Shown here: positions 3,824 to 64,000 of the stretch, piece after piece
How positions within the stretch are numbered: the stretch's first letter is position 1
Layout of the letters: every line of letters begins with the position of its first letter
From: Prorocentrum cordatum
Lineage: Eukaryota > Sar > Dinophyceae > Prorocentrales > Prorocentraceae
Assembly: GCA_963575745.1 (NCBI GenBank)
Contig: CAUYUJ010015506.1
Coordinates: 209,999 to 273,998, forward strand
Length of the DNA: 64,000 nt
Direction of reading: 5' to 3'
Notes under the pieces: model-generated
Told to the model about the DNA's origin: nothing
Databases searched by the model: none
The model's input: the letters and a program-made list of their open reading frames with translations, nothing else
Program-made: the position numbers and the translations under genes

Positions 3824-3851
<28 letters not shown>
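3266..3851. repeat. (TA)n tracts and unrecognised sequence
   Basis: TA tracts at about 3388-3457 and 3828-3851 flank unremarkable sequence. The (TA)n at 3828-3851 directly abuts the A1-type terminal repeat. The equivalents in copy B (8212-8298 and 8649-8680) differ in length, as expected of microsatellites. Confidence 0.8.
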
Positions 3852-3854
<3 letters not shown>

Positions 3855-3938
3855 TTGAGATTCTCATGGGTTTTATCTCGTCCCCCCTCCGTCCTCGAAA
3901 CGATCTCCTCTAAACCGCCTCTCCGTAGCCGCCTCGGC
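3852..3938 (+). repeat. Extra copy of retroelement terminal repeat A (in copy A)
   Basis: These 87 bases match the A1 repeat at 8681-8767 and the A2 repeat at 16724-16810. This copy is stranded with a truncated gag by the tandem duplication. Confidence 0.9.
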
Positions 3939-8647: not shown

Positions 8648-8680
<33 letters not shown>

Positions 8681-8683
<3 letters not shown>

Positions 8684-8767
8684 TTGAGATTCTCATGGGT
8701 TTTATCTCGTCCCCCCTCCGTCCTCGAAACGATCTCCTCTAAACCGCCTCTCCGTAGCCGCCTCGGC
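8681..8767 (+). repeat. Terminal repeat A1
   Basis: Starts TCCTTGAGATTCTC and ends CCGCCTCGGC. It is 87 bases and matches A2 at 16724-16810, after which the two diverge at once. It is directly preceded by (TA)n at 8649-8680. Confidence 0.9.
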
Positions 8768-8942
8768 TCAACCTGCGGCAGGGTGTGCGCGGTGGAGGTG
8801 CTTCTATTAGCCCTGTCAGAGAAGCAAGCGGGGGTCCCCAGAATGACCCCCTCCGAGGAGCCCGCGCCCGAGTGAGCTCCCCCCTCGGCGGCTGGGGGAG
8901 CTCACCAGCCCGCGCCGCCGCGGCGGCAGCACGGCGGTGGCG

Positions 8943-10766
8943 ATGTTCGGAGCCGCGGGGGCTGGCGCGGGCGCCCCGCCTGGCCCGCTTGGGTTGGGCC
9001 CTGGCGGGGGGCTCCTCGGCGTGGGCGGCGGCGGAGTGCTGGGCGGCTTTCTGGGACTGCCGCCTGGCGTCGGCGCCCTGCTCCCGCCGCCGCCTGCCGG
9101 AGTGGCCGCTGGAGCTGCCGCGGCCGCGGGCGGAGCCGCTGCAGGCCCCGCAGCACCAGGAGGCGGAGGCAAGGCAGCGGCGAAGCCCGGGATGGGCGGC
9201 AAGGGCGGCATGGGCGGCATGGGTGGCCCAATGGGCGGCATGGGCAAGCCGCCTGCCGCCCCGCCGCCCGCTGCAGGTCGCGGCAGAGGCGCTGGCGCTG
9301 GAGCAGGAGCGCCAGCAGCCCTGGGCGGCCCCGTGGTGCCGGGTCTGATCCCAGGGATCCCCGGGGTGGGAGCCCTCGTGGGACCACCCGCTCACGCTGG
9401 GGGTGGAGGCGGCCACGCCGTGGCAGGGCAGGCCGCCCACGCGGTGCCAGCCGCCGCCGCGCCTGTGCCCGTGGGCTGGCAGGCAGGCATGCCCGCGGCG
9501 GGCGGGGCGCTGCCGCAGTTCGGAGCAGCGTTCGCCCAGCCAGCGGTGGCGGGGGTCGCGGCGGCGGCGCAGCAGGCTGGACCCTGGGTATACGTGCCCA
9601 TGGCGCCCCAGGCCGTGACCCACGGCCTCCTGGGACTGAGCGCCGGCTGCCGCGTCGAGCTGGTGATGTACGATGCTGCCTGTCAGCCAAGCGGGACGAC
9701 GACGATGACCGTGACAGGGCTGTATCCGCCTGACGCGGCAGGAGAGTTCGTGGAGTGCACAGTGGAGAGCAGCAGCGACCCTCTCTACCTGCCGATCCTG
9801 CAGGGCATCTTCGCGATGGGAAGCAGCGTGGTGCACCTCTGCACCCAGGGCGTGGCGACTTGCTGTCGCACGACCGCTTGGCCAGGGCGCAACGTGGTGC
9901 ACTCGGACACGTTGCGCGTGCTGGGGGCGGCCGGGCCTGGAGGCGGTGCCGCTGATGGCGCTGGAGCCACCCCGCCTGGCGCCCTCCCTGCAGGCGGTGC
10001 GCCGCCCGCCGCTGACGCTGGACCCGTGGTGCCGGGCAAGAACGCAGGTGGAGCTCCCAAGGGCTCAGGCGGTGCCGACGGTGAGGACGTGGATGGCAGG
10101 ACGGCCGAGGAGATGAGGAAGATCGTCAAGAGGCTGAAGGAGAAGCTTCAGAGGAAGCGCTCCATGGGCGAGGCGCTGGCCGAGCGCGCCGAGGCTGCGC
10201 TGGAGGGCCGCCGCAGCCGCAAGAAGCAGAAGAACAGGGACAAGGATAGCTCCGACAGTGCGAGTTTTGATGAGGCCCCGACCGCTGGTTCCGGCCGCCG
10301 AGTGCAGAAGCTGGCCCGCTCCGACCCCGGGGCGCTCGTGGCGGCGGGTCTGAAGCAGATCCGAGAGTACTTGGCGCAGCGGGGCGGGGCCGACAACGAT
10401 GATGAGCTGGATAGGATGGCGTCCAACGTGGTGCAGTGTATCACGAGCGTGTGGCACGGCATGCACCCTCAGAACGAGATGGGGGTGCGGAATGTGCGCG
10501 AGATGAGGATGATCGGGGAGTGCCTGGACGCCCTCACGAGGGGCGATCTGCCGCAGCTGGGCGACATGCTCATGCAGAGGCTGAAGGCCATCGAGCAGGC
10601 CACCAAGGACGGGCACTGGAAGATAGCCGAGCACCTCGAGCTGATCGACTCCACCGACATCGGGCTGGCCAGCAGCGCCGAGGTGTCGGCGGCCGTGGCA
10701 TCCTACTCGGAGGGTGCGAAGTTGAAGGAGCGCCTCACTCGAGCGGGCGCGAGGAGGCCCCCCTAG
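8943..10766 (+). CDS. Gag-like protein ORF, ends at TAG
   Basis: 607 codons from the first ATG; a GTG lies two codons upstream. Residues 1-220 are Gly/Ala/Pro-rich with a Gly-Met-Gly segment near 80-103. Residues about 226-330 look like a compact beta-rich domain with several Cys. Residues about 380-450 are highly charged (Lys/Arg/Glu), and 455-600 are helical, as in capsid-type Gag regions. Position as first ORF of a YR retrotransposon, 5' of RT, supports a Gag role (RNA binding and particle assembly). I see no database-recognisable motif, so the assignment rests on position and composition. The TAG at 10764-10766 follows a CCCCCC run and is followed by GGA. The same frame then stays open for 184 more codons. 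Confidence 0.7.
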   Translation: MFGAAGAGAGAPPGPLGLGPGGGLLGVGGGGVLGGFLGLPPGVGALLPPPPAGVAAGAAAAAGGAAAGPAAPGGGGKAAAKPGMGGKGGMGGMGGPMGGMGKPPAAPPPAAGRGRGAGAGAGAPAALGGPVVPGLIPGIPGVGALVGPPAHAGGGGGHAVAGQAAHAVPAAAAPVPVGWQAGMPAAGGALPQFGAAFAQPAVAGVAAAAQQAGPWVYVPMAPQAVTHGLLGLSAGCRVELVMYDAACQPSGTTTMTVTGLYPPDAAGEFVECTVESSSDPLYLPILQGIFAMGSSVVHLCTQGVATCCRTTAWPGRNVVHSDTLRVLGAAGPGGGAADGAGATPPGALPAGGAPPAADAGPVVPGKNAGGAPKGSGGADGEDVDGRTAEEMRKIVKRLKEKLQRKRSMGEALAERAEAALEGRRSRKKQKNRDKDSSDSASFDEAPTAGSGRRVQKLARSDPGALVAAGLKQIREYLAQRGGADNDDELDRMASNVVQCITSVWHGMHPQNEMGVRNVREMRMIGECLDALTRGDLPQLGDMLMQRLKAIEQATKDGHWKIAEHLELIDSTDIGLASSAEVSAAVASYSEGAKLKERLTRAGARRPP

Positions 10767-11321
10767 GGATTCGGCGAGGGAGAGGGCGGGCGCACCAGGA
10801 CGCCCTCTCCCGCGACGCCGCCCCCACAGACATCGAGTCCTGGAGCACAGGGGGAGAAGGATGCGCCGACGCCCGGATCGAGGAAGGACAGGTGGAGGGC
10901 GAAGCTCTGGCGTGGACGCGGCCGAGGGCGAGGTCGCGGTCGAGGGGACGCTGGCGAGGCAGTGAAGAGAGCGTCGCCGAGCCCGGCAGCCGGGACAGGT
11001 GCTGGCGAGAGATCGGGGAGCCCGAGAAGCCCGTCGCCCCACTGGCGGCCAGCACCTGGCTCGATCAGCCCTGGAGTGGATCGCAAGCCGGCCCTTCGGA
11101 GACCCTCGAGCCCTGTTCGTCGCGTGAGGTTCGCGGACGACGTGACCGCGGAGGCGAAGGCTGGCAACGAGGGCAAGCCGAAGGGCGACAAAGGGCAGCA
11201 CCGCGGGACGCCACCTTGGCGCTCGTGGAACCCGAAGGGCAAGGGCGGCACGAAGGGTCAGGCCCGTGGCAAGGGCAAGGACAAGGGCCAGGGCAAGAGG
11301 TCCAACAATAATCGGAAGTAG
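10767..11321 (+). CDS. Basic nucleocapsid-like Gag extension after in-frame TAG
   Basis: Same frame as the Gag ORF and open for 184 codons with no internal stop. It is rich in Arg-Gly (a run of alternating R and G near 10911-10950), Ser-Pro and Lys-Gly, the composition of a nucleic-acid-binding Gag tail. It has no good ATG of its own (the first usable start is a GTG at 10962). It ends at TAG 11319-11321, five bases before the ATG of the polyprotein. The likely relation to ORF1 is one protein interrupted by TAG, by readthrough, by mutation, or by sequence error. The frame at 10436-11311 (-1) is also open but looks like a GC-rich shadow. Confidence 0.55.
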   Translation, partial: GFGEGEGGRTRTPSPATPPPQTSSPGAQGEKDAPTPGSRKDRWRAKLWRGRGRGRGRGRGDAGEAVKRASPSPAAGTGAGERSGSPRSPSPHWRPAPGSISPGVDRKPALRRPSSPVRRVRFADDVTAEAKAGNEGKPKGDKGQHRGTPPWRSWNPKGKGGTKGQARGKGKDKGQGKRSNNNRK

Positions 11322-11326
11322 AATGC

Positions 11327-14300
11327 ATGAGCTTCGAGGGCACTCGAGAGGCGTGTGACTGCACGTCCGACGGCAGCTGGGAGTCCGAGATCACCTTCTC
11401 CTCGTACCTTGAGGATGAGTGCAACGGCGCCGCTCATGGCGCAGTCTCGGACGAGCCGTCCACGCGAATTCACGACTTTCCTTACTTGAACCCGACGCGT
11501 GCCGCCAGTGAGCTGGGCAGTCTCTGTGGAGCTCCAGTTCGTGTTGTGGGACGCCGTCTAGCTGACCTCAGTACTTCTTCGCCCGCGTCGAGCGGGGCAC
11601 TTGGCAATTTTGATGCGAAATCGTACGATGATATCCTCTCACCACTGACCGCAGGGAACGGACGGCGTGACCTGCTGCCGTTGCCCTGCGTCGATCTGAC
11701 GATCGAGGAGTTGAGCATGAACGGCGTTGTGTTCGGCGAATCGGAGCCAGTCGATCCCTCCTTCGAGGACGACCTGAACGGCTGGCTGAAGCTCACTGTC
11801 CTGAGCCTGAACTTCCAGTACGCGCTGGGGGGCAAGCATCCTGGTCTCAAGATGGCCCCCTGGAAGGTAAGGCACGGGCCCGCCAGCGCGGTGCAGCTGA
11901 AGGCCCTGAGGTTGCTGGCCAGGAGTGTGGGCACGTTCCTATGCCAGTACGAGGGCTCCGTGGCGAACCTCGACTGGACCCAGGAGCTGAAGTCGTCGGC
12001 AGTGAGCTACACGGGCATGGAGGTGTACCCAGCCGAGCAGCTAGACCGCGAGCGCCTCTTGCTCGCCCTGCCGTCGAAGGAGGCTTGCGGCTCGGTATTG
12101 GCGACCGAGGTGAGCGAAGGCTGGATCAGGAGCGTGCTGGAGCACCCGGAGTGGGTGATGAAGAGCCCCGCGGAGCTGGGCGAGATGCCCAAGACCCCGC
12201 GCGTCTGGGCCGAGGATGACGAGTGGGAGCTCATCGCGGCCGAGCTCGTGAACAGGGGCATCCTCGTCCCGATCGAGGCCGACGAGATCGTGAAGGTCAA
12301 GGGCCGTCGCGTGCTGGGCGGCCTCTTTGGTGTACGAAAGTCGGGACACGTCAAAGGCTCGGGGCCGCAGCGGCTAGTGATGAACATCATCCCGAGCAAC
12401 TGGTTGCAGGAGACGGTCCAGGGGGACATGGGTCTCCTCCCGACGACAGACAAGTGGAAGAGCATCATCCTGAGGAGCGGCGAGGTGATGATGAGCTCGT
12501 CGGAGGACCTCAAGTGCTGCTCCTACGTGTACCGGTTGCCCGCGGTGTGGCACAAGTACATGGCGCTCTCCAAGAAGGTGAGCAGGTCCTGCCTCGGTCT
12601 TGACGGGACCGGCGAGGTGCACGTGGCCGCGGCCGTGATCCCAATGGGCTGGGTGTCGGCGGCAGGCATCATCCAGCACATCCACCGGCGGCTGCTTCGT
12701 GAGTGGCTGGAGGGGGTGCCTCCGCTGCCTGAGGACCGTGAATTGCGGCGCGACCTTCCTCTGCCTCCACATCGTGAGAGAGGCTCGGTGGTCTCTCAGG
12801 GCGAGGCGAGGCTGCCGGTGCGAGGCGAGCTGGGCCGATCCTACAGCGACGAGCGCCCACAGGTGTACATCGGTCGCACAGGGCAGCGGTATGGCTTCTC
12901 CCCATCCAAGTGGGCGAACCCCTTCAAGGTGTCAAAGATGATGCCGAGGAGCGAGGCCATCGCGAATTACGAGAGCCACCTGCGCGACTCGCCCGATCTG
13001 CTGGCCTGCTTGCCCGAGCTCTCGGGCTGTCGCCTCCTGTGCCACTGCAGGCGAGGGCAGCGCTGCCACGGGGACGTGCTGGTCAAGATGTGGGCGGAGA
13101 CGGTGCCGAAGGCGACGAGAGGAGATGACACGCTCATACCGGAGGGTGCTGGTACGGCCTGCTGGGTGGTGTGGCAGGTGTACATCGACAACCTTGACGT
13201 GCTGGAGGTTACCGACGAGGTCTCCGCGGCGGCGCTGAAGGCACAGGGCCCCCCCGAGGTGGTGCAGCTGGCTTGCGAGAGGTACGCGCAGCGAGGGGTG
13301 CCCAGGAGCGAGGATAAGGCAGTGTGCCGTGAGCCTGTCAGTCAAGTTTTGGGTGAGCTCATTGACGGCGCGAGGGGCGTGATCAGCCCGCCCCTGGAGT
13401 TCGTGTACCGTCTGCTGGGCCTCACCTTCGCCACGCTGGATCGGAATGTGCTGACTCAGACTTGGCTGCAGGTGGTGGCGGGCCGCTGGGTGCGAGCGAT
13501 GATGTTCAGGCGTGAGACGATGTCCGTGTTCGACGACCTGTGGCGTGCCGTGGTGCGCTGGAGAGGCGAGCGCAGGCTGCCCGCTCCCGTTCAGAGGGAG
13601 CTGCTGCTGGCCGTGGGGCTCCTGCCGCTCATGAGGTGCGACCTCAGGACGCCCGTGAGCGGGCTCGTGACCGTGTCCGACGCCAGCATGCGCAAGGGGG
13701 CGGTATGCCGGGCTGTGCGCCTGCTCCCACACGGCGTTGAGGCAGCCAAGGCTTCTCGCAGGCGCCAGGTGGGGCGGCTGCAGGACGAGGGCGTGCTGCT
13801 GTCGCTCTTCGACGGGATCGGAGGTGGAAGACGGGCCCTCGACATGCTGGGGCTGAGCGTGGCCGTGTATGCTGCGTCGGAGACGGACCCAGAGGCCTGC
13901 CGCGTGGTGAAGCACGCGTGGCCGGACGTGGTGGAGCTGGGCGACGTCGCGAAGCTGAGCGCGCAGGACATCGCCAAGATCCGAGACAGGGCCCCTCATG
14001 TGCGCTGGGTCCTCCTCTTTGCTGGAGCTCCCTGCGTGGACCTCACCAGGCTGAGCGTCGACAGGCGAGGGCTGTCAGGAGCGAGGTCGGGCCTTTTCTA
14101 CGAGATCAAGCGGGTGAAGTCGCTGGTGAAGGAGGTGTTCCCCGTGGAGGTCGAGGTGTTCGACTTGATCGAGAATGTGTCCTCCATGACGGCCGAGGAT
14201 CGCGACGCGATGTCAGAGCACATGGGGCTGGCCCCGGTGATGATCGATGCCGCCGACATCTCACACGTTCGCCGAGAGAGGCTCTACTGGTGTGACACCG

Positions 14301-15424
14301 ACCTCATGACGCCGTGGCAGGGCGAAGTCTGTGTGAAAAGTGAGGTGGTGAAAGTGACGATCCCTGGAGGTCCAGGCCCGCTGGGCCGCTGGCTGCGCCC
14401 TGGGCGAGAGTGGTCAGGAGCCGAGGTTCTTGAGCAGCGTCTGCCCACCTTCGCGAGGTGCATCCCGCGCGGGCGTGCCGGCGACAAGCCAAAGGGCCTG
14501 CACCAGTGCAGCGAGGCCGAGCTGGAGCGTTGGCGGAGGCACGACTTCTGCTATGCGCCGTACCAGTTTCGAGATCCTCACTGTCTGCGATGGCAAGGAG
14601 GTGCGCTGGAGCCTGCGGATTCCTTTGAGAGAGAGATGTTGATGGACTTCCCACCTGGGCACGCGGCGACAGCGCGGGCCACGCGGTTCCGCAAGCTGGC
14701 TGAGCTCGAGGTGGTACGTTGCGCCCTGCTGGGCAACTCGTTCCAGTGCGGCGTGGTGGCATGGATAGTGGCGCACTGGGCTCACCGACACGGCTACCTG
14801 GACTCGGTCCCCACGATGGCGGAGGCGCGCGCGGTCGGAGGCGCCTTCGACGCTGCCGAGGGCCTGGTGCAGGTAGCCAAGGAGGGCGACGACAGCGGGG
14901 TGGTGATCAGGGACCGTGGCCTTGAAGAGGCCGAGGCGCAGGCGGACCCGAGCATCCAGATCGTGGAGGAGCTGATCCGGCGAGCTGAGGTGAGGGGCTC
15001 GGACGTGCGCCTCGACACGCTGGAGGTCATGCGCCCTGACTTGTGGCCACGCCGCCCGATCAGCGTGAGCCGCTGGACGTGGAAGACAGTGCTGGTCTGG
15101 AAGTGGAGGTGGAAGAGCCACATCACGGCGCTGGAAGTGCTGAGCACGCTGGCAGGCCTTCGCTGGCGCTTCAGAGTGGGCCATCACCTTGGCACGAGGT
15201 TCGCTCATCTGATGGATTCGCAGGTTGGACTTGGTGTGATATCGCGGGGGCGCTCCTCCTCGCATCTGCTCAACGCAGCCGTCAAGAGGATCTCAGCTCT
15301 GGTCCTGGCGGCGTCGGCAAGACCGATCTACGGGTACACCGAGACCGACAAGAACCCAGCCGACGACCCTTCGAGGGAAGGCGGCATGTCAGGTGACAGC
15401 AATGCCAAGGAAGCGTCGCATTGA
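11327..15424 (+). CDS. Retrotransposon polyprotein: RT with inserted DUF4326-like domain, RNase H with inserted DNMT3-like methyltransferase
   Basis: 1365 aa from ATG 11327. Reverse transcriptase: RLVMNIIPS at 349-357, SEDLKC with Asp394, VIPMGW at 437-442, then the catalytic box VYIDNLD with Asp621 (YIDN type). Between the last two lies a DUF4326-like domain (about 513-590): KWANPF, then a Cys-rich end LLCHC...CHGDVL at 570-585. RNase H begins with Asp785 (VSDAS) but its remaining acids are Glu1270, Asp1297 and Asp1346/1347 (NPADDPSR). The ~480-residue gap is filled by a cytosine-5 DNA methyltransferase (about 815-1175): motif I LFDGIG at 827-832, Pro902-Cys903 nucleophile, ENV at 949-951, RRERLYW at 982-988, GNSF at 1136-1139. 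Wording around motifs IV-VIII resembles DNMT3. All catalytic residues appear intact. Function of DUF4326 is unknown. Residues 1-300 are not recognised. Confidence 0.92.
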   Translation: MSFEGTREACDCTSDGSWESEITFSSYLEDECNGAAHGAVSDEPSTRIHDFPYLNPTRAASELGSLCGAPVRVVGRRLADLSTSSPASSGALGNFDAKSYDDILSPLTAGNGRRDLLPLPCVDLTIEELSMNGVVFGESEPVDPSFEDDLNGWLKLTVLSLNFQYALGGKHPGLKMAPWKVRHGPASAVQLKALRLLARSVGTFLCQYEGSVANLDWTQELKSSAVSYTGMEVYPAEQLDRERLLLALPSKEACGSVLATEVSEGWIRSVLEHPEWVMKSPAELGEMPKTPRVWAEDDEWELIAAELVNRGILVPIEADEIVKVKGRRVLGGLFGVRKSGHVKGSGPQRLVMNIIPSNWLQETVQGDMGLLPTTDKWKSIILRSGEVMMSSSEDLKCCSYVYRLPAVWHKYMALSKKVSRSCLGLDGTGEVHVAAAVIPMGWVSAAGIIQHIHRRLLREWLEGVPPLPEDRELRRDLPLPPHRERGSVVSQGEARLPVRGELGRSYSDERPQVYIGRTGQRYGFSPSKWANPFKVSKMMPRSEAIANYESHLRDSPDLLACLPELSGCRLLCHCRRGQRCHGDVLVKMWAETVPKATRGDDTLIPEGAGTACWVVWQVYIDNLDVLEVTDEVSAAALKAQGPPEVVQLACERYAQRGVPRSEDKAVCREPVSQVLGELIDGARGVISPPLEFVYRLLGLTFATLDRNVLTQTWLQVVAGRWVRAMMFRRETMSVFDDLWRAVVRWRGERRLPAPVQRELLLAVGLLPLMRCDLRTPVSGLVTVSDASMRKGAVCRAVRLLPHGVEAAKASRRRQVGRLQDEGVLLSLFDGIGGGRRALDMLGLSVAVYAASETDPEACRVVKHAWPDVVELGDVAKLSAQDIAKIRDRAPHVRWVLLFAGAPCVDLTRLSVDRRGLSGARSGLFYEIKRVKSLVKEVFPVEVEVFDLIENVSSMTAEDRDAMSEHMGLAPVMIDAADISHVRRERLYWCDTDLMTPWQGEVCVKSEVVKVTIPGGPGPLGRWLRPGREWSGAEVLEQRLPTFARCIPRGRAGDKPKGLHQCSEAELERWRRHDFCYAPYQFRDPHCLRWQGGALEPADSFEREMLMDFPPGHAATARATRFRKLAELEVVRCALLGNSFQCGVVAWIVAHWAHRHGYLDSVPTMAEARAVGGAFDAAEGLVQVAKEGDDSGVVIRDRGLEEAEAQADPSIQIVEELIRRAEVRGSDVRLDTLEVMRPDLWPRRPISVSRWTWKTVLVWKWRWKSHITALEVLSTLAGLRWRFRVGHHLGTRFAHLMDSQVGLGVISRGRSSSHLLNAAVKRISALVLAASARPIYGYTETDKNPADDPSREGGMSGDSNAKEASH

Positions 15425-16358
15425 CTATGAGATAGACTTGGTGTCCCGCATTCGGGTGCGACGCGCGATTGGCAGATTATCACACACACTAGTTCAACCT
15501 CGTACGTTTCGCAGATATGGTCAGATGGTGCAAAGCTTTGTCTCTTGGATTCGTGCCCATGGTATCGACGTGGCCACTGACCTGGAGCAGCTCGACTTCC
15601 AATTATGTGAATGGATAGAGACGCTATGGGCGCATGGGAGGCCTGCTGGAGATGCTGGGGCCACCTTGTCTGGCGTACAGTTTTTCTTGCGACGCAAGAG
15701 AGTCTTTCACAGTGCGTGGAACCTGCTGAAGGCTTGGCAACGGACTGAGATGCCACAAAGAGCACCACCCATGCCAGAATATGTGCTGATGTCACTTGCC
15801 ACGGTGGCTCGATCCTGGAGTCGAAATGACATAGCGGTGCTGCTTGTGATTGGCTACTCCGTATTCTTGCGTACAATGGAGCTTCTTACTCTCCGTAAGT
15901 GGCAGCTGCAGTTCAGCAACGACGGCCTCAGCCTTGTCATAGCCCTGCCAGTGACCAAGGCAGGCAAGAGACGACACTGTGAGGAGTCCGTCACACTCCA
16001 CGACGCCAGGATTGTTCACTTCATCAAAGTGCTCACTCAGCATTTGCCGCCTGAGAGCTCGTTGCTGCAGGGCACCGTGCCCGAATTTCGTGATGTGTTC
16101 AAAGCTCTCTTGAGGTCATTGAACCTCGAGCGGCACGGTTATCAGATATATTCTTTACGCCGTGGAGGTGCCACCACTCATTACAGAAGGTTCGAGAACA
16201 TGGGCTTGACTTTGATAGTGGGGAGATGGCAAGACACAGCTGTGGCCAGACTGTACATCAGTGACGGTGTGCAAACTTTGCTGCAAAACGATTTCTTGCC
16301 TGCAGAATTGGAACGATTTCGTGTACTGGCGAGTGCTCTTAACTTTGATGTGGGTTGA
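15402..16358 (+). CDS. Tyrosine recombinase (integrase) of the YR retrotransposon
   Basis: 318 aa from ATG 15402; a GTG in the same frame lies at 15393. It overlaps the polyprotein end by 23 bases in another frame. Catalytic region: Arg157 in FLRTMELL, the second Arg in YSLRRGGATTHY (253/254, with the usual HxxR His position not preserved as His), Trp276 in GRWQ, and the Tyr nucleophile at 285 in RLYISDG. Such enzymes join a circular cDNA into the chromosome through a Tyr-DNA bond. Codon use shifts sharply at the boundary: the preceding ORF ends most codons in G or C, whereas this one uses many A/T-ending codons, which suggests a different origin or history. The ORF looks intact. Confidence 0.88.
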   Translation: MPRKRRIDYEIDLVSRIRVRRAIGRLSHTLVQPRTFRRYGQMVQSFVSWIRAHGIDVATDLEQLDFQLCEWIETLWAHGRPAGDAGATLSGVQFFLRRKRVFHSAWNLLKAWQRTEMPQRAPPMPEYVLMSLATVARSWSRNDIAVLLVIGYSVFLRTMELLTLRKWQLQFSNDGLSLVIALPVTKAGKRRHCEESVTLHDARIVHFIKVLTQHLPPESSLLQGTVPEFRDVFKALLRSLNLERHGYQIYSLRRGGATTHYRRFENMGLTLIVGRWQDTAVARLYISDGVQTLLQNDFLPAELERFRVLASALNFDVG

Positions 16359-16464
16359 GATGAAAAGAAGGAGCAAAATATCTGAGCAGCTTCGCTGTCA
16401 GCATTTTCCTGACCCTCCCACCCGTCCCTGGGGATTAATGGCGGTTAACCAGAAAGGGGTGCAT

Positions 16465-16724
16465 GGAAAGGGGTCCCGGGGGGGGTTCGGACTCGCGTCG
16501 AGCGCTGCCGCCCTCACCCGAGGGGGTTCGGACTCGCGTCGCGCTGCCGCTCCCGGTCAACTCCGAGGGGTCGGACTCGCGTCGCGCTGCCGCCCCTGGC
16601 CAGGCTTCGGAGTCCCCGGAGGACATGGGGGGGGTCTCCGCTGGCAGCCCCCCTGTAGCACAAAACCTCTGGTGAGAGGAGTAAAAAGGAGAGAGACGGG
16701 GAAAGGGGACACAGAGATAAATAT
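16465..16724 (+). repeat. Split repeat B1
   Basis: 260 bases repeated at 16908-17167. It contains three internal tandem units built on GGTTCGGACTCGCGTC (about 40-bp period). It lies 106 bases after the integrase stop. The short spacer 16359-16464 shows no gene. Confidence 0.9.
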
Positions 16725-16810
16725 CCTTGAGATTCTCATGGGTTTTATCTCGTCCCCCCTCCGTCCTCGAAACGATCTCCTCTAAACCGCCTCTCCGTAG
16801 CCGCCTCGGC
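16724..16810 (+). repeat. Terminal repeat A2
   Basis: Matches A1 over 87 bases and directly follows B1. A 97-base spacer (16811-16907) with no counterpart at the left end separates it from B2. Confidence 0.9.
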
Positions 16811-16907
16811 CCCGCCCTGTAACCCTGCCCAAGCCGAGTTGGCTAAAAGATGTGCCGATTGCGAGCCATCTGAGGATGTGCTGACGCCATCCCAGCAGGA
16901 GTGCCGG

Positions 16908-17167
16908 GGAAAGGGGTCCCGGGGGGGGTTCGGACTCGCGTCGAGCGCTGCCGCCCTCACCCGAGGGGGTTCGGACTCGCGTCGCGCTGCCGCTCCCGGT
17001 CAACTCCGAGGGGTCGGACTCGCGTCGCGCTGCCGCCCCTGGCCAGGCTTCGGAGTCCCCGGAGGACATGGGGGGGGTCTCCGCTGGCAGCCCCCCTGTA
17101 GCACAAAACCTCTGGTGAGAGGAGTAAAAAGGAGAGAGACGGGGAAAGGGGACACAGAGATAAATAT
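16908..17167 (+). repeat. Split repeat B2, right end of element
   Basis: Second copy of the 260-base B repeat. It ends in GATAAATAT and merges into (TA)n, mirroring the (TA)n left of A1. Confidence 0.9.
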
Positions 17168-56419: not shown

Positions 56420-56640
56420 CTGCTGGCGGAAAACCAGGGGGGTCACTACCGGTTCGAACCCCGCCCCCCCCTCCTCCGGAAAACCGGGGGGGGGTGGGTC
56501 ACTACCGGTTCGAACCCCTCCCCCCCCGTCCATCATGAAAAGGGGGGGTGGTCACTAGCGGTTCGAACTCCCCCCCCCCTCGAAAACCTGGGGGGGTCAC
56601 TACCGGTTTGAACCCCCTCCCCCTCGAAAACCGGGAGGGG
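56420..56640. repeat. G-tract/TTCGAA units, forward array (left arm)
   Basis: Four units of about 50-57 bases, each with GAAAACC, a G run, GTCACTACCGGTTCGAACC and a C run. The same units occur in reverse complement at 57540-57960. Confidence 0.88.
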
Positions 56641-57535
56641 GGTGCGGACAGTGGTGGGGACGGTGGTGGTGGGGACAGCGGTGACGGGACAGCGGGGCAG
56701 TGGTGGGGACAGTGAGACAGTGGTGGGTGGGGACAGTGGTGAAGGCGGTGGTGAGGACAGTGGTGGGACAGTAGCACAGTGGGGAAAGTGGTGGGGACAG
56801 TGGGGGCAGTGGGGACAGTGGGACAGTGATGGGGACAGTGGGGACGCTGGGACAGCACAGTGGGACAGCGGCGGGGACAGTGGGACAGTAGTGGGTACAG
56901 TGGGGACAGTGGGACAGTGGTGGGGACCGTGTGGAAAGTGGGGAGTGGGACCGTGGTGGGACAATGGTGGGGAGAGTGGGGACATTGACACATTGGTGGG
57001 GGCACTGGTGGGGATAGCGGGGACAATGGTGGGAACAGTGGGGACAGTAGGACAGTGGTGGGGACGGTGGTGGTGGGGACAGTGGTGTAGGGACAATGGG
57101 AATGTGGTGGAAACAGTAGGACAGTGGAGGGTACAGTGGTGGTGGGGACAGTGGTGAGGGCGGTGGCGAGGACGGCGGTAGGACAATGGGACAGAGGTAC
57201 AGTGGGGACAGTGGTGGGGACAGTGGGGACAGTGGCGGGAACAGTGACAGCTCAGTGAGACAGCGGATGAGACAGTGGGACAGTGGGGACAGTGGGGACA
57301 GTCGGGCAGTGGTTGGGGCCGTGGAGAAAGTGGGGAAAGCGGAACCGTGATGGGAACAGTGGTGGGAACAGTGGGGACAGTGCGACAGTGGTGGGGGCAC
57401 TGGTGGGGACAGTAGGGACGGTGGTGGAACCAGTGGGGACAGTGGTGGTGAGGACCATGGTGCTGGGAACAGCAGTGGGGGATGTGTTGCGGACGGTGGT
57501 AGGGACTGGGAGTCGTTTGCTGGCGGTGAGGGGGC
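56640..57535. repeat. Purine-rich minisatellite (GTGGGGACA)n
   Basis: About 900 bases of GTGGGGACA/GTGGGACA units, 8-12-bp period, strongly G-rich on the plus strand. It forms the loop between two inverted arrays. Confidence 0.9.
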
Positions 57536-57960
57536 GGGGAGGGGTTCGAACGGGAGTGATTCCCCCCGGTTTTCGAGGGGGAGCGGGGGGGGGTTCGAAC
57601 TGGTAGTGACCCCCTCTGGTTTTCGAGGGGAGGGGGGGGGTTCGACCAGTAGTGACCCCCCCGGTTTTCGAGGGGGGGCGGGGTTCGAACCGTAGTGCCC
57701 TGCCCTGCTTTTTGGAGGGGGGGGGGTGCGAACGGGTAGTGACCTTCCTCTGGTTTTCTGGGGGGGGGAGGGGTTCGAATTGGTAGTGACCCCCCCCCTC
57801 GGTTTTCCGAGGGGGGGGGGGGGGGGGTTCGAACCAGTAGTGACCCCCTCGGTTTTCTGGAGGGAGGGGGGGGTGGAGGTTGTGGAGGGGGGGGTTTTGC
57901 CGGTGGAAAGGGGGGGGGTGGGGGAATTCCAGCCAGGTGGGTGGATTTTCGAGGGGGGGG
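57536..57960. repeat. G-tract/TTCGAA units, inverted array (right arm)
   Basis: About seven units in reverse complement to 56420-56640, e.g. GGTTCGAACTGGTAGTGACC then GGTTTTCGAGGG with G runs up to 16. Confidence 0.88.
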
Positions 57961-58040
57961 GACCCCGGGGTTCCGGACGAAGATTGTATAGTCTGTGATG
58001 TTGGTAGACTGCAGGTTAAGCGTAGGGTAGCGGGGGCTTT

Positions 58041-58077
58041 GCCATAGCCATTTTGGGTCCGTAGTCGTTGGCTCGAG
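58041..58077 (+). promoter_or_regulatory. Tandem spliced-leader relics (genomic imprint of retroposed mRNA)
   Basis: GCCATAGCCATTTTGGGTC (58041-58059) matches the first 19 bases of the dinoflagellate spliced leader at 17 positions. It is followed directly by CCGTAGTCGTTGGCTCGAG (58059-58077), which keeps the SL start CCGTAG and end GGCTCxAG with a 2-base contraction. Tandem degenerate SLs upstream of a coding region are the known mark of mRNAs reinserted into dinoflagellate genomes. It lies 127 bases before the ATG of the giant ORF. It is not a promoter in the strict sense. Confidence 0.6.
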
Positions 58078-58203
58078 TTCGAGCCAGGACTCGGGTGGGC
58101 AGGGGGGCCGCGGGGCGGCCACAACCGCGGTGCTGCAGTCCGGGGACTGCTGGCATCCTCGCGCTAGCGACCCAGGGTCGCTGGCGCGGGGCGGAGCGGT
58201 GCC

Positions 58204-61200
58204 ATGGCGGCGGGCTTCCCGATGGCGCACTTGGCAGTTATGGTTCCTTGGTCGGCCCAGGGGGCGATGGGTTGGTGGCCTTATGGTCGCGCGGCGGGCG
58301 TTGGGGCCCCCGCGCCGACGGCGCTACCCAAGCCCGGGCCGAATCTTCAGACGGCGGGCGGTGGTGGGCATGGCAAGGGGCGCGGCGCGCCCGCCAAGCT
58401 TGCGCCCGGAGCGGGCGGTGGTGGGCATGGCCAGGGGCGCGGCGCGCCCGCCAAGCCTGCGCCCGGAGCGGGCGGTGGTGGGCATGGCGAGGGGCGCGGC
58501 GCGCCAGCCAAGCCTGCGCCCGGAGCGGGCGGTGGTGGGCATGGCGAGGGGCGTGGCGCGCCCGCCAAGCCTGCGCCCGCGGCAGGGAAGGGGCGAGGGC
58601 CGCCGGCCAAGCCCCCTGGGGCGCGCCCGGCTGGTGCCACGACGACTACGACTACGACGACGGGGGCGTCCGCACGGCGGGCTGTGACCAGGACTACGAC
58701 GGCCACGACTACGACGACTTCGACGACCCCCCTGAGGCAGAGGCCTGGGCGCAGGGGCGGTGGCGAACCTACGGGTAGCCCCGCCGCGCCGGATCCTTCG
58801 GAGCGACCTTCATTGACACCGTCCGGCCAGCCGGCAGCCCAGAGCAACGGTTCGGGCGCTGGCGAGGCCCCGTCTCCGGTGGATCCGGTTTTCCCCGTCG
58901 CTGAGCGAAGCCGCGCGGCGGCCAGCTCCGTGGGGGGCGCTGGGAGCAGCGGGCTGGGCCTCGACTTGCTTCACCTCGGCTGGCTGGCCGCTGGTTGGTT
59001 GGCCTGCTGCGTGTTGGGAGCCGAGTGCCGACATCGCCGCATGGAGGCTGCGCTGGCCGAGAAGGGCACCAACCTGCAGCTTTGGGCGACCGAGGCGCTC
59101 GACGCCGGGGAGAAGCTGGCCGTGGCCCGGTCGCGGTGCACCGCCCTGGAGGCAGAGCGGTCACGGGCCGCCGTGGGTGCTGAGGAGTGGCGCCAGGCCT
59201 ACGAAGAGGAGGCGACTCGACGGTGGAGAGAGCGCGTTTCACGGCAGATGATAGCCGAGAGGCTCGTCCAAGGGATGAGCCAGGCGTGCGAGTACGAGCG
59301 GGCGCGCAGATTATGTGCCGAGGAGACCTTGGCGAGGAGCCGCGCGCACGTCGCCACCTTGATGGCGATCGTCGACCACCTGACGACGAGCTTCGAGCTG
59401 GGGGCCACAGGCGCCGAGAACCTCCGGGCCCGCATCGACGAGCTCGAGGCTGCCGCAGGGGCGGGGGGCGAGGCAGGAGTCAGCACCGCGGATTTCGTCG
59501 CGGAGCTACGCGCCGTCGGGGATGATGAGGCCGAGGAGGCGGTCCCGCCGCCCTCGCGCGAGCCTGGCGTGTTCGCGACGACCGAGGGGGTCGACGGCAG
59601 AGGAGGAGGAGGAGTAGGCGGCGTAGGAGGAGAGAAGGATGAAGAGGCGCAGGCAGCGAAGGCGCCGGCTGCTGGGCCAGCGGGGACGGGGGGCCGCGCG
59701 GCGGTCAATCCCACCCCCTTCCGCCCGCCAGATGGCGAGAGAGCGGCGAGGGAGGAGGTCCGCCCGAGAGCGAGGACGAGGAGGCGGAGGAGGATGAGGA
59801 GGACCGCACTCCAGGAGGACGCCCGCACCCCGACCGAGGTTGTCTGCCAACCCCCAGCCGACGGGGGACCGTGGCGGGGCGGCGCGGTCGGTTCCGCCGG
59901 CGCGTTCGGATCGGCCATCATGGTCGGGGTGGGCCAGAACGACGGCTACGTGGGCGACGGGGCGCAGAGCAGGCGCGGCGTGCTGACGCTGAAGTACCCA
60001 ATCGAGCACGGCATCGTGACGAGTTGCGACGATAGGGAGAAGATTTGGCACCACACGTTCTACGCGATGTACGAGGCCATCCCGGCAGTGCTCTCGTTGC
60101 ACGCTTCCGGCCCTGCCACTTGTATCGCGACGGACTCGGGTGCCGATGTGTCGCATGGGGTGCCAATCTACGAGGGTTATGCCTTGCCGTGCACCATCTT
60201 GCGCCTTGACCTGGCCGGCCGCGACCTCACGGGGTACCTGATGAAGGTCGCTGACGTTACGGAGAAGCTCTGCTACGTTGCCCTCGTCTGTGACACTGAG
60301 ATGCAGGCTGCCACCGAGGTTGGGGACGAGGAGAAGGCGTACGAGCTTCCGGGCGGCAGCATCATCACCGTGGGCAGCGAGCGTGCCCGCTGCCCTGAGG
60401 TGCTATTCCAGTCCAGCTTCACCGGCAGGGAAGCCAGCGGCAACCACAACACCCCCTTCCAGTCCATCATGAAGTGCGACGTCGACATCCGCAGGGACCT
60501 CCACGCCAACGCGCTTCCGTCTGGCGGCATCACCCTGTTCGCCGGGATCGGGGAGCGCATGAACAAGGAGCTATCCGCCCTGGCGCCCTCGACGATGAGG
60601 ATCAAGATCGCGGCACCGCCCGAGCGTAAGTACCCCATGTGGATCGGCGGGACCATCCCCCTCACGCAGAGCGCTTCTCAGCAGGAATGGGCTACGAGGG
60701 GCGAGTACGACGAGTCTGGCCCCACCATCGTTCACAGGATCGTCATCCGCGAGGCAGCGATGGGAGGTCCAGCCGGGCTGAACGAGGACGGCGGCTTGGC
60801 CATGCCTGGGCGGGGACGCGCGGGCGAGGGCGAGCGGGCTGACGACAGCGCCTCGTGCGTCCTCCCCGGCGCCAGCGCCTATGGCAGCGCTGCCCACAGT
60901 GCCTATGCCAGTGATGAGGCCCACCCCAACGACGGCGACTGCGCTGGCACCCGTGCCGGCGCAACCGCCAGCGCCGGCGCCTGCGTTGATGCCGGCGCCG
61001 CCGCCCGCGGGTACACCAGCGCCGAGGCCAACATCGATCGCGGCCAGCGCGCCAGCACCAACGCCATCGCGTTCACCAGCATCGATGCCAATGCACGCGC
61101 AGGCACAGACCCGGCTCCGGATCTCTGGCGCGGGGCCGGCCCCGAGCTGGAAGCACGGCTGCGCCGGCGCGCGCTGGCCCTTGAGGGCGCCAGAGACGCG

Positions 61201-64000
61201 CTCGCGAGGCGCCGCTCGGAGCGGGCAGCCGCCGTGGCGGCGGGAGGGGCGCCAGCGGAGGCCAAGCAGTGCCGGTTGACGGACGTGCTCGAGACCTGGG
61301 AGGTCGCGCGGTTGGAACGCGATGAGTTCCCCCGCGAGGCCCGCGAGGCCCTCGAGGTGGGGCAGCAACTGTTAGTGGGGGCTCGCCGCCACCCCGCCGC
61401 GGAGCAGGCGCGGGGCCTCATGGAGATCGGATCCGAGGCCGAGACGGACGTGGAGGCCGACGAGGTTTGGGACATGGATTGGACCACGCACGGCACCGCG
61501 GGCACCGCCAGGGGCCCCGTTTCCGGCACCAACGACCCCGCCGATTTCGTCACCGATGTCGCCGCCTGCACCATCATCGGGGGGCAGGGGATCGTGAGCA
61601 TCACCGCGGGCACGTGGAGGGCCGCGGAGACGGCCGAGGCCGAGACGGACGTGGAGGCCGACGAGGTTTGGGACATGGACTGGACCAGGCTCGGCGACGC
61701 GGGCCCCGACGAGGGCCCCGTCCCCCGCACCGACGCCGCCGCCGTCGTCGGCACCGTCGTCACCGCCGGCGCCAACATCAGCGCCAACGCCGACGCCAGC
61801 GCCGACGCCGACATCGATGCCGACGCTCAGGCTGGCACCGGGCCCACCTACGACACCAGCGCCGCCGCCCCCGACGCCCCCGCCTGCGCCGGCATCAACG
61901 ACAGCGACGGCGCCAGGGCCGACGCCTACGCCGGGGCCGCCGCCAGGCTGGACGCCGACGACTGCACCTCCGGCTCCGACACCGATGAGGACATTGCCGC
62001 CTCCGCAGCCGCCAGCACGGGCGCCAGCGCCAACGCTCCCAACATCACCGCCGATGCCGGCATCAACGCCATCGGCTCCGAGGGCCGCGCGGGCACCGCC
62101 GCCTCCTCGGCTGCCGGCGCAGGCGCCGACATCGACGCTATCGCCCACGCCAGCTCAGTGGCCGGCGAGGTCTGGGCTATGGGTTGGTCCAAGCATGGCG
62201 CCGGGTTCCCTGACGTGGGACCTAGCACTAGCACCAACGCCTGCGCTGAGGTCGGCACCAGCATCACGGCCTACGCCAACATCAGCGCCAGCACCGACGC
62301 TAGCGCCGACGCCTCCGCTACCGATGCAGGCGCTGCCGGCGTTACCGCCTACGCCGAAACCAACGCCAGCGCCGACGCCGGCGCAAGCGCCGACGCCGCT
62401 GCGAGAGCCGGCGTCGGCACCGATACCAGCGCAGGCGCTGGGACCAACGCCGACGCCGACAGGGACGTCTGCACGGGCACCGGCGCCCACACTGCCGCCG
62501 GCGCCGACGCTGGCCCTAACGTCGGCGACTGCGCCACCTGCTCCGCGCCTCCGCACGCACGGGCTTGGCTCCGCAGGCTCCGTGCAGCTCGCGCGGGCGC
62601 TCTCGCGCGCGCGCGCTGCCAGTTCTGCTTTCGGTCGCGCTCAGCGCGCCGCACGCGTCTCGCGCCCTTCGCGAGCGCGGCCACGCGCCGGCGAGCCGGC
62701 GCCGCGCGGTTGGGGCGCGTTTGCTCCCCGCCTGAGCGAGGCCGTGGAGGCCAGTTCAGGCGCGTGCCGTACGTTGCTGGCGGGGCTTGCCCAGCTGGAG
62801 CGTCGCGGCTGCCCTCGCCGCCGCCGCGGCAGGCCGCTCCGCGCTTGCCGAGCCACGAGGACCACCTCAAGGGCGACTCCGCCTCCCCCACCGCCGACGC
62901 CAACGCCGACGTCGAGGGCTCGAGGAGGGCTGCGGGGACGGACGGGGTCAAGACGGACGCGGAGGCCGACGAGACTCGGGACTGGGACTGGACCAGGTTC
63001 GGTGCCGCGGGCCCCGACGGGGGCCCCGTTCCCGGCACCGACGCCGCCGCCGTCGTCGGCCCCGTCGTCACCGCCTGCGCCAACATCAGCGCCAGCGGCG
63101 AAGCCGGCGCCGACGCCGACACCGATGCCGAGGCTCAGGCTGGCACCAAGGCCGCATCCTACGACGCGAGCGCCGACGCCAACGTCCCCGCCTTCGCTGA
63201 CATCAACGCCGGCGACGGCGCCAACGCCGACGCCTATGCCGGAGCCGCCGCCTGGTCCGACGCCGAGCCGCCGCCGCTGCAGGCCGCTCCGCGCCCGCCA
63301 AGCTGCGAGGACTGCCGCGAGGGCGACTCCGCCTCCGCCACCGCCGACGTCGACGCCAACGGCGCCTACGCCGACGCCGAGACCAGCGCAGAAACCAGCA
63401 CCGACGCCGACATCGGCATGACCGTCTACATTGGAACCGCTGCCCGCACCGCCGACGACGCCCGCGCTGGCACTGGGGCCCGCGCCTACGCCGGCGCCGC
63501 CGCCGGTCCCGGCGCCAGCGACGGCGCCTTCGGTGCCGACGACGCGACCGCGGGCGTAGTCGCACACCGAGGCACGCACCATGAGGCGGGCGCTACGCGG
63601 TTCAGCTTCGTGGCTGCCCGTGCCGCCCAGCCGGCGTTGGTCATGCCGGCGGGGCTTAGCCGCGTGGGTACGAGCCTTAGGGGCGACGTCCCAGCGGCGG
63701 GGTTGGCGGTGGCTGGAAACCTTACCGTTCGCATACCTTCGGATCACGTGGAGGATTGCGCGCACGCCCTGGTGAGGCGCGGGGCCGGGCCCCCTGTCAA
63801 GGGCACGCGGGCGCTCGACAGTACGTGGGATCCGACAGGCACGCTGACGCCCTTCAGTGCGCCCGCATCCCAAAGCGCGCTTGGGCCTTGCAGCACTCTG
63901 GTATCCGAGAGCGTGCCCCAGTCCAACTTCAAGGGTGTGGCTGGGCTCAACGGCAGGCTCCATGGACTGTGGTGTTGTGATTGGATTGGCCGAGGGGATT
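58204..64000 (+). CDS. Giant chimeric ORF with an actin-derived domain (open at window end)
   Basis: No stop from ATG 58204 to the window end: at least 1932 codons. An in-frame TAG at 58165 precedes it. Parts in order: four ~20-aa Gly/His/Arg/Ala/Pro/Lys repeats (residues about 50-129); Thr-rich linker; one hydrophobic helix (about 253-275, [19 protein letters not shown]); a coiled-coil-like region (280-419); acidic and basic linker; an actin-derived domain (573-846); a charged linker (980-1070); then Ala/Asp/Asn-rich modules to at least 1780. The actin part keeps [56 protein letters not shown]-like, [10 protein letters not shown] and [13 protein letters not shown] segments, but lacks the actin N-terminus and two internal blocks. 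The nucleotide-site residues that can be judged are altered, so polymerisation and ATPase activity are doubtful. No introns are needed. With the upstream SL relic this suggests a retroposed, then fused gene. The repeats favour C/G-ending codons in this frame. Function unknown. Confidence 0.65.
58351..58590 (+). repeat. 60-bp coding tandem repeat in giant ORF (4 copies)
   Basis: Four in-frame units encoding [19 protein letters not shown] with few substitutions. The last copy is the most diverged. Confidence 0.9.
59920..60745 (+). other. Actin-derived domain within giant ORF
   Basis: 274 residues. In conventional actin numbering they cover roughly 44-91, 131-192 and 213-372. Missing are the N-terminal ~43 residues with the first phosphate loop, about 39 residues after HHTFY, and about 20 after YLMK. 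In the second phosphate loop DSGDGV has become DSGADV, and the Gln of AIQAVLSL is Pro. The retained blocks are collinear and in frame, so the losses were multiples of three. Confidence 0.88.
61435..63540 (+). repeat. Ala/Asp-rich repeated modules in giant ORF
   Basis: A module starting [15 protein letters not shown] occurs at 61441 and 61651. Diverged starts are at about 62167 (EVWAMGWS) and 62959 ([14 protein letters not shown]). The second and fourth continue with [13 protein letters not shown], VVTAxANISA and a long tract where every second residue is Ala (ADADxDADAQAG, ADAYAGAAA). The underlying DNA has a strong GCCGAC-like 6-base rhythm. Confidence 0.85.

Follow-up and report, generated by a model that had tools for sequence, protein, structure and literature searches.

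The giant open reading frame at the right end of the window, the stretch of 64,000 nucleotides of Prorocentrum cordatum DNA analysed here, belongs to a 14-kb mobile element that is present in more than 20 nearly identical copies and is thus multicopy. The frame probably represents the coding part of a large P. cordatum mobile element that is apparently non-autonomous, most likely a retroelement of the tyrosine-recombinase type with split direct repeats (DIRS/PAT/Ngaro-like); a piece of a host actin gene has been captured by one of its subfamilies. The full element is 14.25 kb long (C14657:267982-282232) and extends 8.2 kb beyond the window. The first-pass annotation had described a fusion unlike any known actin or actin-related protein; the copy number rules out a unique fusion gene, at least 22 loci having the same trimmed actin in a dispersed element. 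The features are collected in Table 1.

Table 1. Features of the actin element and of the second element in the window (window coordinates).
Feature	Position	Strand	Remarks
Left 6 kb of the 14.25-kb mobile element	57984..64000	+	Sharp ends in copies on other contigs
Terminal repeat A1, 114 bp	57984..58097	+	Its copy A2 follows B1 immediately, 375 bp before the 3' end
Match to the reverse complement of the element's 3' terminus	58015..58026	+	Short asymmetric inverted repeat
Dinoflagellate spliced-leader relict, 16/18 bases	58042..58059	+	Second, gapped SL-like stretch to ~58080 (by eye)
Giant open frame from the first ATG	58204..64000	+	Stop-to-stop opening from 58168
Gly-rich 57-bp tandem array, 4 copies	58354..58579	+	
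Hydrophobic stretch, membrane-helix candidate	58966..59022	+	By eye; a like stretch in the actin-less relative L028
Charged, coiled-coil-like, heptad-like domain	59041..59547	+	By eye; common to P. cordatum proteins P0122 and P0123
Segment without counterpart at the same place in L028; contains the actin	59820..61110	+	Homology stops at ~59819 and restarts at ~61111
Trimmed actin	59911..60771	+	Pfam and host-actin alignment
Ala/Asp-rich modules, internally repeated	61111..64000	+	~83% between 650-bp units
Second split-direct-repeat element, A1-body-B1-A2-spacer-B2	8674-17167	+	Layout scan
A1 of the second element	8674-8767		
B1 of the second element	16465-16724		
A2 of the second element	16717-16810		
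B2 of the second element	16908-17167		

The frame runs without a stop to the window edge and holds 1932 codons from its first ATG, as the first-pass annotation had reported. In this copy it stops about 560 bases past the window, giving 2132 codons from stop to stop. Copy C20933 has an intact frame of 4382 codons. Position-specific base frequencies predict 37.9 stops in it and 0 are present, and each of the remaining five frames of this DNA contains 21-126 stops, so base composition does not explain the opening. The Gly-rich repeats, hydrophobic stretch, charged region, actin and Ala/Asp modules previously described in this one frame are all found there at the places given for them, the membrane helix and the coiled coil by eye, and so are runs of Thr.

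Parts of the frame also appear in annotated proteins of P. cordatum. The coiled-coil-like domain matches P0122 at 73% and the first 159 residues of P0123 at 159/159. P0123 is a predicted protein with an Actin domain and matches the giant frame at 327/344 positions over the actin. Its gene model leaves out large parts of the frame as if they were introns, though the DNA is open throughout; these omissions are perhaps a prediction artefact. A 64-residue piece of P0122 resembles the far C-terminal part of the giant frame (41-44%). One source names P0122 a DDE-1 domain protein; a Pogo/DDE origin was rejected, neither P0122 nor a piece of it matching Pfam.

The assembly searched comprises 4,128,499,153 bases in 21,875 contigs (4.15 Gbp, 22,724 scaffolds and 59.7% GC in the published account of strain CCMP1329, as far as excerpted; PMC10666404), and all genome copy counts are lower bounds. 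The actin search gave at least 132 matches (102 of 220 candidates scored). The loci with the same trimmed actin (profile positions 234-236 to 407) number at least 22, of which 21 also have the 122-186 piece and hence both Pfam pieces; the frames around the trimmed actin at the 22 loci range from 861 to 4382 codons. When the 5' 221 bp were searched, at least 40 matches were obtained (40 scored of 663 candidates), comprising at least 22 loci of the actin subfamily, one A2 copy and 17 other loci that match over the first ~146 bp at 91-94%. The 3' 300 bp gave at least 80 matches (40 scored of 437 candidates), with at least 23 loci at 98-100%, 17 at 93-94%, and second B copies as the remainder.

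The five copies that were read at length share about 99% identity and have sharp, exact ends and unrelated flanks. The window copy is 99.0-99.6% identical to the four others in the main pieces and 98.5% in the duplicated 2.2-kb piece of C13425. The length is 13.9-14.3 kb in the four of the five copies that have both ends; the C13425 copy has N in place of its 5' part, with no A1, and a duplicated 3' piece. A further copy lies on contig C13950. Ends paired 13.9-14.3 kb apart were also found on C20833, C10280, C14347, C10890, C13974 and C13889, none of which is among the actin matches listed; the first four are counted as actin-less only by that absence. In the relative L029, taken from C20833, the giant frame spans at least 2877 codons, and its modules are the same but differently ordered. 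Directly upstream of the insertion, window positions 56437-57881 contain minisatellites of the GGGGACAGTG type together with 43-56-bp repeats. The copy at C15337:223639-237954 seemingly lies within a coding-looking stretch, and by eye the frame of that stretch runs across the joined flanks (L042, L043) without added bases.

The ends of the element have the layout A1-body-B1-A2-spacer-B2. The 3' end is a head-to-tail junction, made of B1 (209 bp, ending CTTAAC), A2 (114 bp), 52 bp, and B2, a copy of B1; A begins TTGTATAG and B ends CTTAAC. Within each of five elements compared (the actin copy C20933 together with C10280, C14347, C10890 and C20833), A1 and A2 show 0-1 differences in 114 positions and B1 and B2 show 0-2 in 209. 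The actin element differs from the four others at 5-7 positions in A and 10-11 in B; among those four, A differs at 0-7 and B at 0-4 positions, with identical A in C14347 and C10890. A scan for this layout in the window and in five 30-40-kb regions recovered the actin copies in four of the five regions, the fifth being without A1, in N; it detected only one other element, that at 8674-17167 in the window.

Insertion sites were read for 24 copies (18 actin, 6 other), of which the 22 with both ends were used and two with the 5' end missing were left out. There was no target-site duplication: none of the 22 sites has two or more matching bases (1.7 expected by permutation), and three match at one base. 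C11670 and C10890 lie in related flanking repeats, and by eye the flanks align across both insertions with no added bases. The flanks indicate only a loose preference, with no strict 3-bp core as in DIRS1, and neither poly(A) nor terminal inverted repeats were found at the element ends.

In the five elements, the near-identity within the A pair and within the B pair despite the divergence of the subfamilies, together with the lack of a target-site duplication, is the signature of tyrosine-recombinase retrotransposons of the DIRS/PAT/Ngaro type. Accounts of PAT and Ngaro elements describe the order A1-body-B1-A2-B2, with A2 copying A1 and B2 copying B1 (PMC4157794; PMC8547959), and integration of the DIRS1 type is described as leaving no target-site duplication (PMC3266345), in the portions of these sources that bear on the point. 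The actin element shares the repeat order of the PAT and Ngaro elements so described, but it has a spacer between A2 and B2 and no enzymes were found in it; it is also far larger than the Ngaro of Cafeteria, given there as ~6 kb. Membership in the DIRS/PAT/Ngaro order, as judged from repeat structure, is not proven. Against it speak the absence of a recombinase or reverse transcriptase among the domains found in the element, the 52-bp spacer between A2 and B2, unlike the B1A2B2 layout of Ngaro, the lack of a strict 3-bp core, the identical A of C14347 and C10890, and the imperfect identity of A and B among the actin copies. In the five actin copies compared, the window copy has 1 difference between A1 and A2, and its A1 is the same as in C14818; the A2 of C14818 differs from all others at 8-10 positions; B1 and B2 of the rearranged C13425 copy differ by 9. 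Gene conversion could be an alternative homogeniser of the A and B repeats.

Pfam searches detected no reverse transcriptase, RNase H, tyrosine recombinase or any domain besides actin in the element, although such searches could miss a very divergent reverse transcriptase, and no YxDD-type motif occurs in its six frames. With no enzyme found inside, the element looks at most like a non-autonomous derivative. The reverse transcriptases of dinoflagellate DIRS elements are reported, in the relevant part of one study, to align poorly with Pfam, so a missing reverse transcriptase is no proof (PMC5890265).

The same ends could also belong to a rolling-circle DNA element (Helitron-, Helentron- or Helitron2-like) that captured actin, in which tandem read-through would give the head-to-tail B1|A2 junction. 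The absence of target-site duplications and the exact ends without terminal inverted repeats would fit such an element, as would the short asymmetric inverted repeat, which has 2/12 mismatches in the actin element and 1/12 in two relatives tested; Helitron2 is described, in the section consulted, with asymmetric terminal inverted repeats (PMC4067079). The same section gives 5'TC, 3'CTRR, a 3' hairpin and insertion between A and T as the hallmarks of Helitrons (PMC4067079). The ends found here are not 5'TC/3'CTRR, the bases at the insertion sites follow no A|T rule (A before in 10/22, T after in 9/22) and there is no significant 3' fold (z 0.52), and Helitrons were ruled out by ends, target and hairpin. 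Of the Helentron and Helitron2 traits, the short asymmetric repeat is present, but the sites read follow no TT rule and the 3' fold is again not significant. Rolling-circle replication also does not predict that the pairs A1/A2 and B1/B2 stay identical while subfamilies diverge, and we regard this origin as rather unlikely.

The spliced-leader relict occupies positions 59-76 of A, with 58 bp of conserved sequence upstream of it. Its match score of 14 was reached by none of 2000 shuffles of the first 260 bp; the score is also reached in the rest of the element because the A2 copy lies there. Four of the five elements score 14 and C20833 scores 12. The spliced-leader sequence used, and the fact that dinoflagellate retrogenes carry such relicts, are taken from passages of a single report (PMC6050394). 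In the retrogenes so described the relict likewise lies upstream of the frame, but in the actin element it is inside a repeated terminal block, 58 bp from the end. We infer from these positions that the element RNA may once have been trans-spliced at the relict, with A2 restoring the lost 58 bp.

The relict near the 5' end could also be expected if the copies were segmental duplications, or LTR- or LINE-type retro-copies of one mRNA, since retrogenes bear such relicts (PMC6050394, in part), and gene conversion between repeats also yields A1 equal to A2 and B1 equal to B2. Retro-copying is contradicted by the conserved 58 bp upstream of the relict and by the lack of poly(A) and of a target-site duplication, which rule out a LINE-type retro-copy. 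Moreover, of 22 matches of the actin subfamily, 20 reach the very 5' end and the others begin at positions 46 and 71, and bodies of other subfamilies lie between this same pair of ends. An origin by duplication or retro-copying is therefore improbable.

For a split-repeat retroelement, the following course can be proposed. Transcription would start in A1, and the RNA would be trans-spliced near the spliced-leader relict and so lack the extreme end. An autonomous element would supply reverse transcriptase and recombinase, and the internal B1|A2 junction would provide the missing ends. A circle with a B|A junction would then form, which the recombinase would insert cleanly. The actin would travel as a passenger coding sequence. 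The frame would be held open in master copies, perhaps since a premature stop would make the transposition RNA unstable or because a gag-like bulk protein is required, and not for an actin function.

Actin is the single Pfam family in the frame of the window (E 2.1e-54, in 3 stretches), and the best actin match in the PDB (E 1.2e-113) indicates homology over the fold present. The trimmed actin is collinear with the host actin L001, with 73.8% amino-acid identity over 279 codons. It lacks host residues 1 to ~41 and the last three residues, and two in-frame losses lie inside it, of 39 codons at 60063/60064, between FY and AMY, and of 17 codons at 60246/60247, after LMK. The host-actin alignment thus agrees with the first-pass annotation, in which the actin blocks were collinear and in frame despite three losses. 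The nucleotide-binding P1 loop is gone with residues 1 to ~41, AIQAV has become AIPAV, and DSGDGV has become DSGADV. We take the P1 loop, Q137 and D154/D157, in this numbering, to be key residues of actin; given the known actin biochemistry of Q137 and D157, the trimmed actin should not be a working ATPase. The host reference consisted of eight whole actin loci, L001-L008 (376 aa, two identical), with 0-4 residue differences against L001; in contrast to these whole actins, the captured piece is trimmed and its key residues are gone. At third positions the captured actin is closest to L003 (0.333) and L001 (0.348), within the range between differing host paralogues (0.10-0.39).

The relative L028, read directly here, shares 92% of the 5' end as well as the Gly-rich, Thr-rich, hydrophobic and coiled-coil parts, and has no actin. 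Since L028 lacks actin yet shares the end and the modules, one subfamily of an older mobile family captured the actin. The actin is thus no separate processed pseudogene, the case that the first-pass annotation had considered for relatives, but lies inside one element subfamily.

The first-pass annotation had also argued for selection on the reading frame or for a very recent origin. As to the residues, the five copies show 114 nonsynonymous, 46 synonymous and 0 stop private changes in the frame, and their own mutation spectrum predicts 72.8% nonsynonymous, 26.0% synonymous and 1.1% stop (1.8 stops of 160). The private changes among recent copies are close to the no-selection expectation and hence neutral. 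Private substitutions, non-coding ones included, are biased from AT to GC (A>G 53, T>C 34, C>T 27, G>A 21). The 87 A>G or T>C changes stand against 48 reverse transitions though the frame has 74% GC, and A>G exceeds T>C. At sites invariant among the eight host actin loci, the element differs at 35/259, 41/271 and 18/96 sites of codon positions 1, 2 and 3, respectively; the actin is without detectable amino-acid constraint since capture and drifts freely. The naive dN/dS of the actin against host actin, a check that the first-pass annotation had proposed, is low (0.149/0.812, or 0.18), yet this ratio misleads because much of the synonymous distance can sit on the host side. Purifying selection as a reading of that ratio was rejected on the host-invariant sites. 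When L029 is compared with the actin element, positions 1, 2 and 3 have mismatch rates of 0.153, 0.128 and 0.111 and dN/dS is 0.97 over 1304 codons, measured on the best non-overlapping aligned pieces, in which paralogous modules may be included. Against L028, dN/dS is 0.585 over 268 codons, and the N-terminal part may be weakly constrained.

The openness of the frame is another matter. The frames of two subfamilies, the 4382-codon frame of C20933 and that of L029, are stop-free. Over 300 simulation runs with 6.5% neutral change, the 4382-codon frame gained 8.6 stops on average and never fewer than 2, a result contingent on the recent mutation spectrum and the use of two elements. The lineage thus appears to preserve an open frame but not its residues. 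The claim of selection thus holds for a frame that is open beyond chance and stop-free in two subfamilies, but not for the protein, given the host-invariant sites and the neutral private changes. The complete lack of stops in two subfamilies exceeds the openness that a pure passenger would require. Indel phase was dropped as support for frame selection: 2/41 and 5/46 gaps are multiples of three, and the distant alignments are full of 1-base gaps.

These data also bear on the possibility that the copies form a functional host gene family encoding a giant translated actin-fusion protein under selection. A frame open far beyond chance, the in-frame actin losses, the public gene models P0122 and P0123 and the dN/dS of the L028 part would all agree with it. 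However, the copies have transposon-like ends and unrelated flanks, the private changes look neutral and the full 4382 codons are present in 5 of the 22 frames. In the actin, the P1 loop and further key residues are missing and constraint is not detectable, and the gene model of P0123 is a prediction from which much of the frame is absent. A host gene family is therefore very improbable. It is also unlikely that the element encodes one giant, largely disordered protein of ~4370 residues whose frame, with a drifting sequence, is selected for openness and composition and not for residues, the actin being a host remnant recruited into the gag-like protein of a split-repeat retroelement.

The second element in the window has the same layout as the actin element and a Gly/Ala-rich first ORF, but its A and B repeats are different and it has coding parts of its own. 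These include a Dnmt3-like domain (best PDB match DNMT3A, E 1.2e-14; PF00145, E 1.1e-9) and DUF4326 (E 1.8e-16), the latter within a polyprotein that by eye resembles a divergent reverse transcriptase/RNase H. The ORF at 15240-16358 has weak integrase similarity (PHROG 216, E 0.013); no integrase was detected in it in Pfam, NCBIfam or PDB sequences, and a single-sequence model was of no use (pLDDT 36.5). By eye this ORF has what we take to be recombinase-like motifs. No tblastn match to the ORFs of the second element was found in the copies of the actin element that were read. A further copy of its A repeat lies at window positions 3845-3938 (98.9% identical) and is perhaps a fragment of another copy.

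By its domains the second element resembles a DIRS-Dnmt3-type element, and it suggests that tyrosine-recombinase-type machinery is present in the P. cordatum genome. SymbioDIRS-Dnmt3 of Symbiodinium is described, in the part of that study concerned with its structure, as A-coding region-B-A-B with a methyltransferase gene taken into the coding region, and as encoding a reverse transcriptase, a tyrosine recombinase and a DNMT (PMC5890265). As described, it is like the actin element in its dinoflagellate host, split repeats and gene capture. The actin element differs in that no reverse transcriptase, recombinase or DNMT was detected in it, in its length of ~14.3 kb and in the position of the actin in one 13-kb low-complexity frame. 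In the openly licensed literature we found no report of actin captured by such an element nor, searching by phrase, of a non-autonomous DIRS, Ngaro or YR element.

The actin element, a large split-repeat element that seems non-autonomous, is apparently a variant within a known kind of element. If the class is right, it would be a very large non-autonomous tyrosine-recombinase retroelement carrying a captured actin. Such an element offers a system for testing movement in dinoflagellates, where trans-splicing would remove the 5' end of the RNA and split repeats could restore it. The comparison with host actin also calls for caution: where the host gene is strongly constrained, the host branch can be largely responsible for a low dN/dS measured against it. 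Mobile-element bodies whose amino acids are under little or no constraint can account for giant open frames of many kilobases in a GC-rich genome, a point of importance for gene counts and claims of giant proteins.
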